64,000 bases of DNA from Acidobacteriota bacterium (GTDB lineage: Bacteria; Acidobacteriota; Terriglobia; Bryobacterales; Bryobacteraceae): positions 1 through 64,000 of the forward strand of contig VFZY01000002.1 of assembly GCA_016870915.1 (NCBI GenBank), read 5' to 3'. This document shows, piece by piece, positions 14,565-48,608 of the stretch (positions are counted from its first letter, which is position 1; each line of letters starts with the position of its first letter). The notes beneath the pieces are model-generated. The model was not told the DNA's origin. It made no database searches and was given only the letters and a program-made list of their open reading frames with translations. Both the position numbers and the translations under genes were made by a program.

Positions 14565-16187
<1,623 letters not shown>

Positions 16188-16222: not shown

Positions 16223-17242
16223 CTATTGCGCCGGTACGCCGGCCTCCTTCTTCTTCTTGAGGAAGGTCATCATGCCGCGCAGTTCACCGCCCACCTTTTC
16301 GATGAGCAGGTTCGAACCCTGATCGCGCATCTTGAGGAAGTTATGGCGGCCGGTCTTATTCTCGCCGATCCATTCGCGGGCAAACTGGCCGCTCTGGATC
16401 TCGCCGAGGATCTTCTTCATTTCGGCGCGGGTCTGATCATTGATGATGCGCGGGCCGCGGCTGTAGTCGCCGTATTCGGCGGTGTCGGAAACGGAGTAGC
16501 GCATGTAGCCGAGGCCGCCTTCATAGATGAGGTCGACGATCAGCTTCAGCTCGTGGAGACATTCGAAGTAAGCGATCTCCGGCGCGTAGCCCGCTTCAAC
16601 CAGCGTGTCGAACCCGGCGCGGATGAGCTCACTCACGCCGCCGCAGAGCACCACCTGCTCGCCAAAGAGGTCGCTTTCAGTCTCTTCGCGGAACGTGGTT
16701 TCGATGCAGCCGGCCTTGAGGCAGCCCAGGGCGAGGGCATAGGCCAGGGCATTGGCGAGCGCGTTGCCGGTGGCATCCTGGTGCACGGAGACAAGACCGG
16801 GCACGCCGACGCCTTCCGTGAACAGTTCCCGCACGCGATGGCCCGGCGCCTTGGGCGCCACCATGGAGACGTCAACACCCGCCGGCGCGACGATGGCGCC
16901 GAAGTGGATGTTGAATCCATGGGCGAACATCAGGGTATCGCCGGCCTCGAGATTCGGGGCGATATCGCTGTTGTAGAGATCCGCCTGGATGTGGTCCGAG
17001 ACCAGGATCATGATCACCTGCGCCGCCCTGGCGGCTTCGGCGGTGGTCATGACACGCAGGCTGGCGGCTTCCGCCTTGGCCCAGCTTTTCGAGCCGGGGT
17101 ACAGGCCCACAACCACGTCCACGCCCGAATCGCGCAGGTTGAGCGCGTGGGCATGGCCCTGGCTGCCATAGCCGATGATGGCGACCGTCTTTCCTTTAAG
17201 GCGAGTGATGTCGCCGTCTTTTTCGTAGTAGCGATTGGGCAT
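16223..17242 (-). CDS. ilvC: Ketol-acid reductoisomerase (class I)
   Basis: It converts acetolactate and acetohydroxybutyrate to dihydroxy acids using NADPH and Mg2+, the second common step to Val, Leu and Ile. The 339-residue class I protein has the Rossmann motif [16 protein letters not shown] (about residues 20-35). It also has the [11 protein letters not shown] segment, and the knotted C-terminal domain with [17 protein letters not shown] and [17 protein letters not shown]. Its length is standard. It starts six bases after the ilvN stop and is followed by cimA. Confidence 0.97.
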
Positions 17243-17248
17243 CCTGGT

Positions 17249-17806
17249 TTAAGACTCCACGTTGACAGTAGTTGGTTCGGCGCCGCGGGGGACCGGCGGC
17301 GAAAGACGCAGCTTCTTGGGATCGAGCGACACCGCCACGGCGCCCGAGCGGGTCACCTCGATATCGCCGTAGCTGCGCATCACATCGATGAACTCATCGA
17401 GCTTTTCAGTGTCGCCGGTGACTTCGAGCGCGAAGCCTTCGACCGACGAATCGACGACGCGCGCGCCGAAGATCTCGGCTTCCTTGAGGATGGCGGTGCG
17501 CGGCCCGTTGTTGCCTTCCTCAGCCGCGGCGCGGACGCGGAGCAGCAGAAGCTCACGCGTGACGGACGGCGATTCGGAAAGGTCGGAGGCCTGGAGCACG
17601 TTGATCAGTTTGTTCATCTGCTTGATCACCTGGGCGCGGAGCCGCGGCTCCACATCGACCACGATGGTCATGCGGGAGAGCGTGGGGTCGAGCGTCTTCG
17701 CCACGGTGAGGCTTTCGATGTTGTAGCCTCGGGCGGTGAGCAGGCCCGTCGCACGCATCAGCGCGCCGGTCTTGTTCTCAAGCAGTACGGAGATAGTTTG
17801 AAGCAT
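17249..17806 (-). CDS. ilvN: Acetolactate synthase small (regulatory) subunit
   Basis: It binds valine and modulates the IlvB catalytic subunit. The 185-residue protein opens with an ACT domain (ISVLLENKTGALMRATGLLT, then ARGYNIESLTVAKT). A second, ACT-like C-terminal region follows, with FGARVVDSSVEGFALEVTGD. The length is that of the IlvH/IlvN long form. The gene begins 15 bases after ilvB and ends six bases before ilvC. Confidence 0.95.
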   Translation of the reverse strand: MLQTISVLLENKTGALMRATGLLTARGYNIESLTVAKTLDPTLSRMTIVVDVEPRLRAQVIKQMNKLINVLQASDLSESPSVTRELLLLRVRAAAEEGNNGPRTAILKEAEIFGARVVDSSVEGFALEVTGDTEKLDEFIDVMRSYGDIEVTRSGAVAVSLDPKKLRLSPPVPRGAEPTTVNVES

Positions 17807-17821
17807 GGAATTCCCTGACCG

Positions 17822-19564
17822 TTACGGCACCGCCACCGGCTGCGGCTGCGCCAGCACCATTTCGTTGATCGCGCCGCCGGCGGGCACCATTGGATAGACA
17901 TTCTCCGTGGGCGACACGCGGATGTTCAGCAGATAGGGGCCGTTTTCCGCGAACGCCTCTTCCAGCGCCGGCCGGAGTTCATGCACGTGTTCAATGGTGC
18001 GTCCCTTGAACCCGTAGGCGCCGGCCAGTTTCTCGGCATCCGGGAAACTATCGAGCGTCACTGAGCAGAGGCGGTTGTTGTAGAACAGTTCCTGCCACTG
18101 CCGCACCATGCCCAGGTATCCATTGTTCAGCACGATGATCTTGATGGGCAGGCCGTGGCTGGCGATGGTGGCCAGTTCCGGCACCGACATCTGGAAGCCG
18201 CCGTCGCCGACGATGGACACGACGGTTTTTTCGGGGCAGGCAAACTGGGCACCGATCGCCGCCGGCAGGCCGAAGCCCATGGAGCCCAGACCGCCCGAGT
18301 TGATCCACAGGCGCGGATGATTGAACCGGATGAACTGCGCCGACCACATCTGGTGCTGGCCGACGTCGGAGGTGACAATGGCTTCCCCGCGCGTCAAGCG
18401 GTCGATTTCAGCGACGGCATGCTGGGGCTTGATCTCAGTGGAGGAGGTGGCCGGCGTCAGCGGATGCTCTTCCTTCCAGGCGCGAATCTGGCTCCACCAG
18501 GCGCGCCGGGAGGCCGAATTGCGCGCCGCCATGGAAGGCTCAAGCTCACGCAGGACAGGATTCAGTTTCTGCAGCACGCGGCGCACGTCGCCGACGATGG
18601 GCAGGTCGGCATTGCGGATCTTGCCGATTTCCGCCGGGTCGATATCCACGTGGATGACCTTGGCATGGGGCGCGAACGCGGCCAGGCGGCCGGTGACACG
18701 GTCATCGAACCGCACGCCCAGCGCGATCAGCAGGTCGGCATTGTACATGCCCATGTTGGCCGCATAGCTGCCATGCATGCCCGGCATGCTCACGAAGTTG
18801 GGGTGGTTGGAGGGCATGGCGCCCAGCCCCATCAGCGTGTTGACGCAGGGGGCATCCAGAATCTCAACCAGCTCCCGCAGTTCCTGATGCGCCCCGGCGT
18901 GGATGATGCCGCCGCCGGCATAGACGTACGGCCGCTGCGCTTCCCACATCATCTGCGCCGCGCGCCGGATCTGGCCCGTGTGGCCGTCGGCATGCACCTT
19001 GTAGCCCGGCAGATGAATGGAGGTGACGGGGGTGTAATGCACCTGCCCCTGGAAGACATCCTTGGTGACGTCCACCAGCACCGGGCCAGGACGCCCGGTG
19101 GAAGCGATGTAGAACGCCTCATGAATCACTTCCGGCAGTTCATGGATGTTCTTCACCAGGTAATTGTGCTTGGTGCAGGACCGCGTGATGCCGAACGTGT
19201 CCGCTTCCTGGAACGCGTCGCTGCCGATGAGCTTGGTGGGCACCTGGCCGGTGAGGGCCACCAGCGGAATGGAATCCATCATCGCGTCCACCAGGCCGGT
19301 GACCAGGTTGGTGGCCCCGGGACCCGATGTGGCGCACGCCACGCCCACCTTGCCCGTGGCCCGGGCATAGCCCTGCGCCGCGAAACAGGCATTCTCCTCA
19401 TGCCGCACGAGGACGTGGCGGATGGGGTTGTCGTACATGGCGTCGTAGAGCGGCAGAGTGACCCCGCCGGGATAGCCGAAGATGCACTCCACGCCTTCCC
19501 GCACAAGGCACTCGAGCAGCATCTTCGCTCCGCTCATGAGCGTTCCAGTGGCTTGATGTGACAC
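17822..19564 (-). CDS. ilvB: Acetolactate synthase large (catalytic) subunit
   Basis: A thiamine-diphosphate enzyme making acetolactate from pyruvate, or acetohydroxybutyrate with 2-oxobutyrate. The 580-residue protein has the N-terminal Pyr domain (EGVECIFGYPGGVTLPLYDA, with the catalytic Glu in VRHEENACFAAQGYARATGK). A central FAD-site domain follows, then the PP domain with the TPP motif GDGGFQMSVPELATIASHGL through LNNGYLGMVRQWQ. The start is GTG at 19564, with AGGAG six bases upstream. It is the first structural gene behind the attenuator at 19608-19735. Confidence 0.97.
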   Translation of the reverse strand: MSHQATGTLMSGAKMLLECLVREGVECIFGYPGGVTLPLYDAMYDNPIRHVLVRHEENACFAAQGYARATGKVGVACATSGPGATNLVTGLVDAMMDSIPLVALTGQVPTKLIGSDAFQEADTFGITRSCTKHNYLVKNIHELPEVIHEAFYIASTGRPGPVLVDVTKDVFQGQVHYTPVTSIHLPGYKVHADGHTGQIRRAAQMMWEAQRPYVYAGGGIIHAGAHQELRELVEILDAPCVNTLMGLGAMPSNHPNFVSMPGMHGSYAANMGMYNADLLIALGVRFDDRVTGRLAAFAPHAKVIHVDIDPAEIGKIRNADLPIVGDVRRVLQKLNPVLRELEPSMAARNSASRRAWWSQIRAWKEEHPLTPATSSTEIKPQHAVAEIDRLTRGEAIVTSDVGQHQMWSAQFIRFNHPRLWINSGGLGSMGFGLPAAIGAQFACPEKTVVSIVGDGGFQMSVPELATIASHGLPIKIIVLNNGYLGMVRQWQELFYNNRLCSVTLDSFPDAEKLAGAYGFKGRTIEHVHELRPALEEAFAENGPYLLNIRVSPTENVYPMVPAGGAINEMVLAQPQPVAVP

Positions 19565-19607
19565 GCGATTCTCCTACTCTTGAATAATTGCAGGCCGGTA
19601 GAAAACG

Positions 19608-19648
19608 AAAAGGCCATCAGCCGGTTGTTCACCCCGCTGATGGCCTTT
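19608..19648 (-). terminator. ilv attenuator: intrinsic terminator in the ilvB leader
   Basis: On the minus strand AAAGGCCATCAGC (19648-19636) pairs perfectly with GCTGATGGCCTTT (19621-19609) around a 14-base loop. It is followed by TTTTCGTTTT. It lies between the Val/Ile-rich leader frame and ilvB, ending about 44 bases before the ilvB GTG. Its position fits an attenuator rather than a terminator for an upstream gene, because no other minus-strand gene precedes it after the xerC stop. Confidence 0.88.
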
Positions 19649-19672
19649 CGGAAACCGTTTACAGGCCGATCA
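19638..19672 (-). promoter_or_regulatory. Predicted antiterminator hairpin of the ilv leader
   Basis: TGATCGGCCT (19672-19663), which includes the leader stop codon, closely copies the 3' arm of the terminator. It can pair with AGGCCATCA (19646-19638) in the terminator 5' arm, with one bulged C and a 16-base loop. The two structures are mutually exclusive. A ribosome stalled on the leader Val/Ile codons would leave this strand free; a ribosome reaching the stop codon would cover it. Confidence 0.72.
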
Positions 19673-19735
19673 TGCGGGGCCGCGTACCGCTACCCCTACG
19701 ATGACCGGAATGCTAATGATGACTGTATTGGACAC
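19670..19735 (-). CDS. ilv leader peptide (Val/Ile-rich, attenuator)
   Basis: A 21-residue frame from GTG to TGA contains the run VIISIPVIVGVAV. Nine of the 20 residues after the start are Val or Ile, and none is Leu. It ends RGPA before the stop, and the stop codon is part of the antiterminator strand. Codons were read directly from the reverse complement of 19670-19735. No strong ribosome binding site precedes the GTG. An in-frame TTG at 19774 would give 34 residues and would lie about nine bases from the predicted transcript start. The layout mirrors enterobacterial ilvL: promoter, hydrophobic leader peptide, terminator and ilv genes. Control would be by charged Val- and Ile-tRNA; this is inferred. 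Confidence 0.75.
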   Translation of the reverse strand: MSNTVIISIPVIVGVAVRGPA

Positions 19736-19789
19736 TGGTCGCGCGAGCCGCTGGTTACGTTCGCAGATGGACAAGTGCCCCACGAATTA

Positions 19790-19818
19790 AGGATACCCTA
19801 CAAGTCCGGCAAATGCAA
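19790..19818 (-). promoter_or_regulatory. Sigma-70-type promoter for the ilv leader and operon
   Basis: Minus strand TTGCAT (19818-19813), 17 bases, TATCCT (19795-19790), with an expected start near 19783. The -35 matches four of six bases and the -10 four of six at ideal spacing. It stands 50-60 bases before the leader GTG and just after the xerC stop at 19882. Confidence 0.6.
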
Positions 19819-19881: not shown

Positions 19882-20790
19882 TCAGGCCTTGGGATGCGCT
19901 TTATCATAGACCGCCATCAGATCCACCAGCGAGACCTGGGTATACCGCTGCGTGGTCCCCAGCGAGGCATGGCCGAGGAGTTCCTGGATTGCCCGCAGGT
20001 CGGCGCCGGCGCTCAGCAGGTGGGTGGCGAAGGCGTGGCGCAGGGTGTGGGGGTGGATGGAGGAGTCGCCGGCGATCATGGTGGCGTAGAGCTTGACGAT
20101 GCTCCGGACGGCCGAATCGGTGATGCGGGCGCCGCGCCGGCCCAGAAAGAGCGCGGTTTCCCGGGCGGCCGGCTGGCGCTCGGCAAGGTAGCGTTCGATG
20201 GCCGCCGCGGCGCGAAGGGTCACCGGGATTTCGCGCTCTTTCTTGCCTTTGCCGCGGACGCGCAGCCAGCGGTCCTTGAGATCCAGGTCCTCCACGTTGA
20301 TTCCGGCCAGTTCGCTCACACGCACGCCGCAGCCATAGAGCACCTCGAACAGGGCCATGTCGCGCACGGGCTGGGTGCGGGGGATCTCCGCCGTGGCCAC
20401 GCCATCCAGCAACCCGTTCACCTGCTCCTCCGTGGGAACCTTGGGCAGCCGCTGCGGCGCCTTGGGCCGGCGCACCATGCGGGCCGGGTTCTTATCCACG
20501 ACACCGGTGCGGCGCAGGAAGTGGAAGAACGACCGGATGGCTGCCAGTTTCCTCTGCACGGATACGGGGTCGAGGCCCCGCGTGTAGAGATCGCCCAGCC
20601 ATTCGCGGATCATCAGATGGTCGAACGCCGCCACGGTGGGCGGGGTCTCGCCCGGCGGGGTGAAATAGACGCTGAACTGTTCCAGATCGATGCCGTAGTT
20701 TCGCAGGGTGTGCGGAGAGCAGTTCCGCAGCCGCAGGTCATCGAGAAACGCGGTTATGTGCCGGTTCAATTCAGCGGGCGGCGTATGCAT
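19882..20790 (-). CDS. xerC: Tyrosine recombinase XerC
   Basis: A site-specific recombinase that resolves chromosome dimers at dif with XerD. The 302-residue protein has the SAM-like N-terminal DNA-binding domain (LNRHITAFLDDLRLRNCSPH) and the catalytic domain. The active-site Arg is in LYGCGVRVSELAGIN and the Lys in RVRGKGKKEREIPVT. HTLRHAFATHLL, LLGHASLGTT and the nucleophile Tyr in QRYTQVS complete the set. The ATG at 20790 gives a normal start; the open frame extends further but only into trmFO. It overlaps trmFO by 20 bases. The trmFO-xerC adjacency also occurs in Firmicutes, favouring XerC over XerD. Confidence 0.92.
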   Translation of the reverse strand: MHTPPAELNRHITAFLDDLRLRNCSPHTLRNYGIDLEQFSVYFTPPGETPPTVAAFDHLMIREWLGDLYTRGLDPVSVQRKLAAIRSFFHFLRRTGVVDKNPARMVRRPKAPQRLPKVPTEEQVNGLLDGVATAEIPRTQPVRDMALFEVLYGCGVRVSELAGINVEDLDLKDRWLRVRGKGKKEREIPVTLRAAAAIERYLAERQPAARETALFLGRRGARITDSAVRSIVKLYATMIAGDSSIHPHTLRHAFATHLLSAGADLRAIQELLGHASLGTTQRYTQVSLVDLMAVYDKAHPKA

Positions 20791-48567: not shown

Positions 48568-48608
48568 AACGGCCGGCCGGGATCTCTCCCGGCCGGCCGT
48601 TGCTTTTC
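48568..48608 (+). terminator. Long perfect hairpin with T-tract in a gene-free gap
   Basis: AACGGCCGGCCGGGA (48568-48582) pairs perfectly with TCCCGGCCGGCCGTT (48587-48601) around TCTC, a 15-base stem. On the plus strand TTGCTTTTC follows. On the minus strand, downstream of the TonB receptor stop, no T-run follows, so its strong direction is plus. No solid plus-strand gene precedes it. It may still stop both strands or end a small RNA in the 236-base gap 48388-48623. Confidence 0.65.

Follow-up and report, generated by a model that had tools for sequence, protein, structure and literature searches.

A predicted ribosome-mediated attenuator in front of ilvBNC-cimA in the Bryobacterales and its occurrence in other Acidobacteriota

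In E. coli, the ilvGMEDA operon (leader ilvL) and the ilvBN operon are preceded by a leader peptide rich in branched-chain residues, by the alternative helices 1:2, 2:3 and 3:4 and by a terminator before the ilv genes. Both enterobacterial operons are listed as attenuated in PMC1183508. The ilvBNC operon of Corynebacterium, a high-GC host, has a terminator controlled by a uORF (ilvB-II motif, PMC10272879), for which a three-hairpin model was given (PMC11857589), and the uORF of C. glutamicum has been discussed as leaderless. For the ilvB-OMG and Leptospira ilvB motifs, RNAs associated with ilvB whose predicted uORFs are rich in branched-chain residues and also in Thr, attenuation was proposed (PMC10272879). 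Actinobacteria have candidate ilvB leaders in which a uORF with runs of Ile/Val/Leu precedes ilvB and overlaps the terminator; how they regulate was described as unclear (PMC1262725). In Streptomyces coelicolor, mutation of the regulatory codons in a comparable ilvB leader was without effect (cited in PMC1262725), which counts against the reading given below. For the Acidobacteriota no description of such an attenuator was found in the mainly open literature searched; the broad survey of Lopatovskaya et al. 2010, cited in PMC4833913, might include candidates. A preliminary description of the present locus had called such leaders little described in high-GC organisms of this kind, which holds for the Acidobacteriota in that literature but not for the high-GC actinobacteria with their ilvB leaders (PMC1262725, PMC10272879).

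The window, i.e. the whole 64 kb stretch of DNA analysed, has 65% GC and, by its nearest named relatives, belongs to a MAG of the Bryobacterales (Acidobacteriota). On its minus strand an element at 19818-19602 lies in the gap separating ilvB from xerC, which ends at 19882, and stands directly before ilvBNC-cimA. Judged from sequence, it is very probably a classical ribosome-mediated transcription attenuator for these genes. Sequence and comparison document the promoter, the conservation of the uORF, competing helices with compensatory change and the tracking of pathway genes. Promoter and leader ORF, regulatory codons, terminator, mutually exclusive antiterminator and 1:2 helix were all recognised here, and the features are as follows.

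19813-19818, minus strand: promoter -35 element TTGCAT, read from the sequence and recurring in relatives.
19790-19795, minus strand: promoter -10 element TATCCT after a 17-base spacer, read from the sequence; relatives have TAnnnT, usually with a spacer of 17 (15-19).
19670-19783, minus strand: uORF for a leader peptide of 37 aa, MGHLSICERNQRLARPVSNTVIISIPVIVGVAVRGPA followed by the stop codon; GTG start at 19783-19781, 6 nt after the -10 element.
19685-19723, minus strand: VIISIPVIVGVAV, the control codons; 9 of the 13 are Ile or Val, a density reached nowhere else in the window.
19699-19708, minus strand: segment 1, CCGGTCATCG, pairing with segment 2 (MFE of the whole leader; 1:2 swap test).
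19663-19679, minus strand: segment 2, CCCCGC-A-TGAT-C-GGCCT, across the Pro-Ala-stop codons (MFE of nascent RNA; pair counts).
19632-19646, minus strand: segment 3, AGGCCATCAGCGGGG, common to antiterminator and terminator (folding, pair counts, swap test).
19609-19648, minus strand: predicted intrinsic terminator 3:4, 13 perfect pairs (19648-19636 / 19621-19609; folding and covariation).
19602-19611, minus strand: interrupted U-tract TTTTCGTTTT, its first Ts part of the stem (sequence).
17822-19564, minus strand: ilvB, acetolactate synthase large subunit (TIGR00118, 798 bits; GTG start, AGGAG upstream).
17249-17806, minus strand: ilvN, acetolactate synthase small subunit (TIGR00119 / NF008864).
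16223-17242, minus strand: ilvC, ketol-acid reductoisomerase (NF004017 / TIGR00465).
14565-16187, minus strand: cimA, citramalate synthase (TIGR00977 above cut-off), which closes the presumed operon.

Of the systems described so far, the leaders of the enterobacterial ilv operons and of Corynebacterium ilvBNC come closest. With the former the element shares the branched-chain-rich leader, the three helices and the terminator before ilv genes, and the ilvL logic proposed for it at the outset agrees with the presence of all classical features examined, stalling being predicted to give antitermination and arrival at the stop codon termination. It differs from them in phylum, in an enrichment of Ile and Val without Leu, in the predicted leaderless uORF and in cimA as the last gene, with no sequence similarity shown. 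The Corynebacterium attenuator likewise has its terminator governed by a uORF, stands before ilvBNC and comes from a high-GC host, but its uORF has about 15-17 codons against 37 here, and sequence and phylum are different. The ilvB-OMG and Leptospira uORFs resemble the present one in position and branched-chain content and are set apart by their Thr; the window element had no Rfam match. The actinobacterial candidates, similar in their codon runs and terminator, contrast with the separate, covarying antiterminator found here. Rfam searches gave no match at gathering in the window, only chance miRNA matches at E up to 10, and no match in the leaders of 14 related loci. In a related genome, positions 8-51 of locus L144 matched the Acido-Lenti-1 RNA (RF01687) with a score that just reached the gathering threshold. 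The mechanism itself is textbook ribosome-mediated attenuation; new are the taxon, the leaderless start and the codon choice.

The promoter TTGCAT-17-TATCCT named in the preliminary description was present and recurred in the same form in 47/50 relatives, mostly as exact TTGCAT. Since the GTG at 19783 lies so close behind the -10 element, the predicted transcription start coincides with the start of the uORF, which is thus probably leaderless. Of the relatives that carry the promoter, almost every one has an in-frame start codon 6-19 nt past the -10 element (25 nt in one case), and in most of them no Shine-Dalgarno sequence precedes it. The short frame with VIISIPVIVGVAV (19723-19685) and its stop codon TGA (19672-19670) were correctly recognised earlier; as a correction, its start is probably the GTG at 19783, and a shorter alternative uORF begins at the internal GTG 19735. 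As the conserved promoter sits upstream of the uORF, no transcription start downstream of 19735, which would have spoken against an attenuator, is indicated. Among the 100,654 six-frame stretches of 13 codons in the 64 kb, VIISIPVIVGVAV was the sole one with at least 9 Ile+Val, and this, with the rank of the terminator hairpin, speaks against a chance assembly.

The antiterminator 2:3 joins CCCCGC (19679-19674), TGAT (19672-19669) and GGCCT (19667-19663) to AGGCC-ATCA-GCGGGG (19646-19632) in 15 pairs with two single-base bulges. The strand at 19672-19663 first taken for it, TGATCGGCCT, is present and includes the stop codon, but the actual helix is longer and begins at 19679. Helix 1:2 is formed by CCGGTCAT (19708-19701) with ATGATCGG (19673-19666), extended by GGGG:CCCC, and was weaker in many relatives in the swap test. 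The RNA folding that had been suggested as a check gave 1:2 and 3:4 in the MFE fold of the whole leader (z = -4.4) and 2:3 in the MFE fold of nascent RNA stopping before segment 4. The terminator hairpin is the second strongest on the minus strand of the window and its perfect 13-bp stem is as first described, but the T-tract is interrupted, so that the strength of the terminator is uncertain, a point against the attenuator reading. The strongest terminator-like hairpin of the window, at 48568-48601, scored high on both strands and is possibly a bidirectional terminator.

Conservation of the leader frame and of the competing pairings in close relatives, on which the preliminary description had made its reading depend, was found in 47 aligned relatives, with compensatory changes in both antiterminator and terminator. 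In these leaders 95.2% of the terminator cells were paired and 8/12 pairs had changed on both sides, pairing as high being reached in 0/500 shuffles. The outer antiterminator CCCCGC:GCGGGG was paired in 92.2% against 45-58% when slid, with both-side changes in 3/6 pairs. The inner half was assessed by the swap test instead of column counts because the spacing after the stop codon varies. Segments of the same leader gave a 2:3 energy of -24.8 kcal/mol against -22.8 kcal/mol when swapped and -15.8 kcal/mol with shuffled segment 2. Own segments beat swapped ones for 2:3, 3:4 and 1:2 (0/2000 permutations, uncorrected for shared ancestry); shuffles and permutations alike ignore the kinship of the leaders. 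Compensation also rewrote the peptide, to Pro-Gly with CCCCGG/CCGGGG (L055-L057), Pro-Tyr with CCCCTAC/GGAGGGG (L048) and Leu-Ala with CCTCGCC/GGCGAGG (L378); in these loci the peptide is apparently altered to preserve the helix.

The leaderless start, termination, ribosome stalling and the response to amino acids are parts of the attenuator model that we infer, and the leader would regulate ilvBNC-cimA as follows. Transcription would begin at about 19783, at the same place as the uORF, so that the ribosome would probably load at the 5′-end without a Shine-Dalgarno sequence. In shortage of Ile or Val it would stall in the Ile/Val codons and cover segment 1, leaving segment 2 free to pair with segment 3, by which the terminator would be blocked and ilvBNC-cimA transcribed. 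A ribosome reaching the stop codon would mask segment 2, and termination would follow; the speed of the translating ribosome would decide on transcription of the operon. This was modelled by barring from pairing the RNA up to the right edge of the ribosome (A-site codon + 9 nt). P(2:3) was 0.01 with the A-site at the stop codon, 0.40 at codon -2, 0.70 at -5, 1.0 from -7 to -11 and at least 0.95 out to -17, and the Ile/Val codons are located at -5 to -17 relative to the stop. The family mean traced the same curve as the window leader. In untranslated nascent RNA at equilibrium 2:3 was favoured (P 0.91, window genome), which counts against the reading; in the model, the untranslated outcome would depend on the persistence of 1:2, which forms first.

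In family genomes sampled through IlvB, and thus independently of any leader match (the second batch judged partly by eye: L354, L365, L367, L378), the leader was upstream of ilvB in 57/60 (21/21 + 36/39). The exceptions G050, G068 and G083 (loci L342, L347, L361) had kept the TTGCAT promoter and lost the terminator, so that the attenuator appears to have been lost there naturally. When the leader DNA was used as a query, 47/150 family genomes gave matches, and ilvB adjoined the match in 29/29 loci retrieved from other genomes. Two further families of the order, represented by 8 genomes, showed the layout in all 8, with Pro-Gly in place of Pro-Ala before the stop. Three of these genomes (L059-L061, from family f3) have retained the uORF and the hairpins, but the T-run after the hairpin is poor and the output of the attenuator may differ. 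The predicted attenuator is thereby conserved throughout the order, and it recurs elsewhere in the phylum.

Outside the order, an Ile/Leu/Val uORF with a terminator was found in 12/78 ilvB upstream regions, some of them weak, against 1/78 on the reverse strand and 0/390 in shuffles; similar leaders would thus occur patchily elsewhere in the Acidobacteriota. Their stop codon was often within GGATGA(C)GGC facing GCCGTCATCC. Matches of model R1 in other classes precede ilvNB, ilvNC, pheA-like genes adjoining ilvB, and cimA. Two Val-rich leaders with a terminator, e.g. VVFGFVGVVVLVVRPTG, were located before a prephenate-dehydratase-like gene (L179 and L180, in G546 and G642), with ilvB next in L180. 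Strong R1 matches were found in G272 and G290, from other families of the class. The ilvB of G272 (L156) is about 81% identical to that of the window and its leader match (5e-18) is far above those of other genomes of its family. In G272 the operon may have been transferred together with its attenuator, or the sequence may be a contaminant, and transfer and contamination are likewise the alternatives for G290. Several weak phylum-level R1 matches (e.g. L181, L185-L187, L190, L191) proved to be terminators lacking a leader of this type ahead of ilv genes and were rejected. So was a second attenuator in the genome of the window itself, where the sole other match below E = 1, C13:27185 (E 0.003), is the terminator after an atpE-like gene.

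In family genomes with cimA away from ilvB, a second element was found with model R1 in G008 and G127; cimA elements were also found with it in G050 and G100, and a pair of elements in G079 was read from the upstream sequence. Control codons of the cimA leaders, e.g. MLTFLSIGIIIGAGITSPA and MLLIIQGILLISVAITGPA, were Ile 22, Val 3 and Leu 12, against Ile 2 and Val 17 in the ilvB leaders of G008, G079 and G127. The contrast between ilvB and cimA codons inside one genome is clear, with just two genera contributing. G008 displayed a further element before a second ilvN-like gene (L200), and this leader and those before cimA in G008 and G079 (L199, L341) are Ile-rich where the ilvB leader of the same genome is Val-rich. 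A rule by which Ile is lost from ilvB leaders solely in genomes whose cimA lies outside the operon was rejected as not exclusive, since 10/76 other ilvB leaders are also Ile-poor; for one of these ten, from G067, cimA likewise seems to lie on a different contig. Fisher p-values on Ile loss and cimA displacement ignore phylogeny.

Control by Val and Ile without Leu, as first suggested from the codons, fits the family, in which control codons are Ile 28%, Val 26% and Leu 8.7%, compared to 5%, 7.6% and 10.6% in eight comparison genes of the window. Of the Val codons in the leaders 51% are GTA, vs 2% in genes, and ATT accounts for 59% of leader Ile codons vs 14%. Other four-fold codons of the control region end in A in just 12%, which means that a general preference at the third base does not explain the excess of GTA. 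The tRNA-Val genes found comprise one each with anticodons UAC, CAC and GAC, and the tRNA-Ile has GAU. Why certain synonymous codons make attenuation sensitive is explained in PMC1183508, and by analogy this theory may apply to GTA. A signal of synonymous substitution sought in the control codons was not found, variation being 0.56 at position 3, 0.56 at position 1 and 0.45 at position 2; as the third position is no more variable than the first, the coding signal lies in amino-acid class and frame and not in simple synonymy.

The strong hairpin in the gap between xerC and ilvB might also be a plain intrinsic terminator for xerC or other upstream transcripts, the uORF being there by chance. This is scarcely credible, as the conserved promoter separates xerC from the hairpin, relatives likewise have the Ile/Val uORF in frame, the antiterminator covaries and the element moves with cimA. 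Hairpins used without reading of the uORF, in a T-box, a ppGpp or other riboswitch or a protein-bound leader, would account for the competition of terminator and antiterminator, common to all such classes, and ppGpp riboswitches do precede ilv genes in Firmicutes (PMC10272879). Such a switch is extremely improbable here, given that no Rfam family matched at gathering or relaxed threshold, that the conserved parts are the end of the uORF and the helices, and that the codons track the downstream gene, with Ile/Leu for cimA.

Leader-peptide control might also take another route, the ribosome on the uORF acting through Rho-dependent termination or by coupling its translation to that of ilvB, and not by way of hairpin 3:4. 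In favour of this, the poor T-run in L059-L061 makes a terminator consisting only of the hairpin doubtful in those genomes. Against it stand the stem of 9 to 20 bp followed by T-rich sequence in the window and nearly all its family, and the covariation of both helices, and we consider it very unlikely.

The Acidobacteriota are an abundant soil phylum in which, in the literature found, attenuator functions are nearly unassigned. Tentatively, and as a proposal that falls somewhat short of probable, a single leaderless-uORF attenuator scaffold may act there as a sensor for branched-chain pathways, movable between genes and addressed through its codons; it would be placed before ilvB in the family and also before a separate cimA, with codons retuned to Ile/Leu for cimA and, within those genomes, to Val for ilvB. 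Sensing of Val would be focused on the otherwise rare GTA, the codon of tRNA-Val(UAC), something that selective-charging theory permits.
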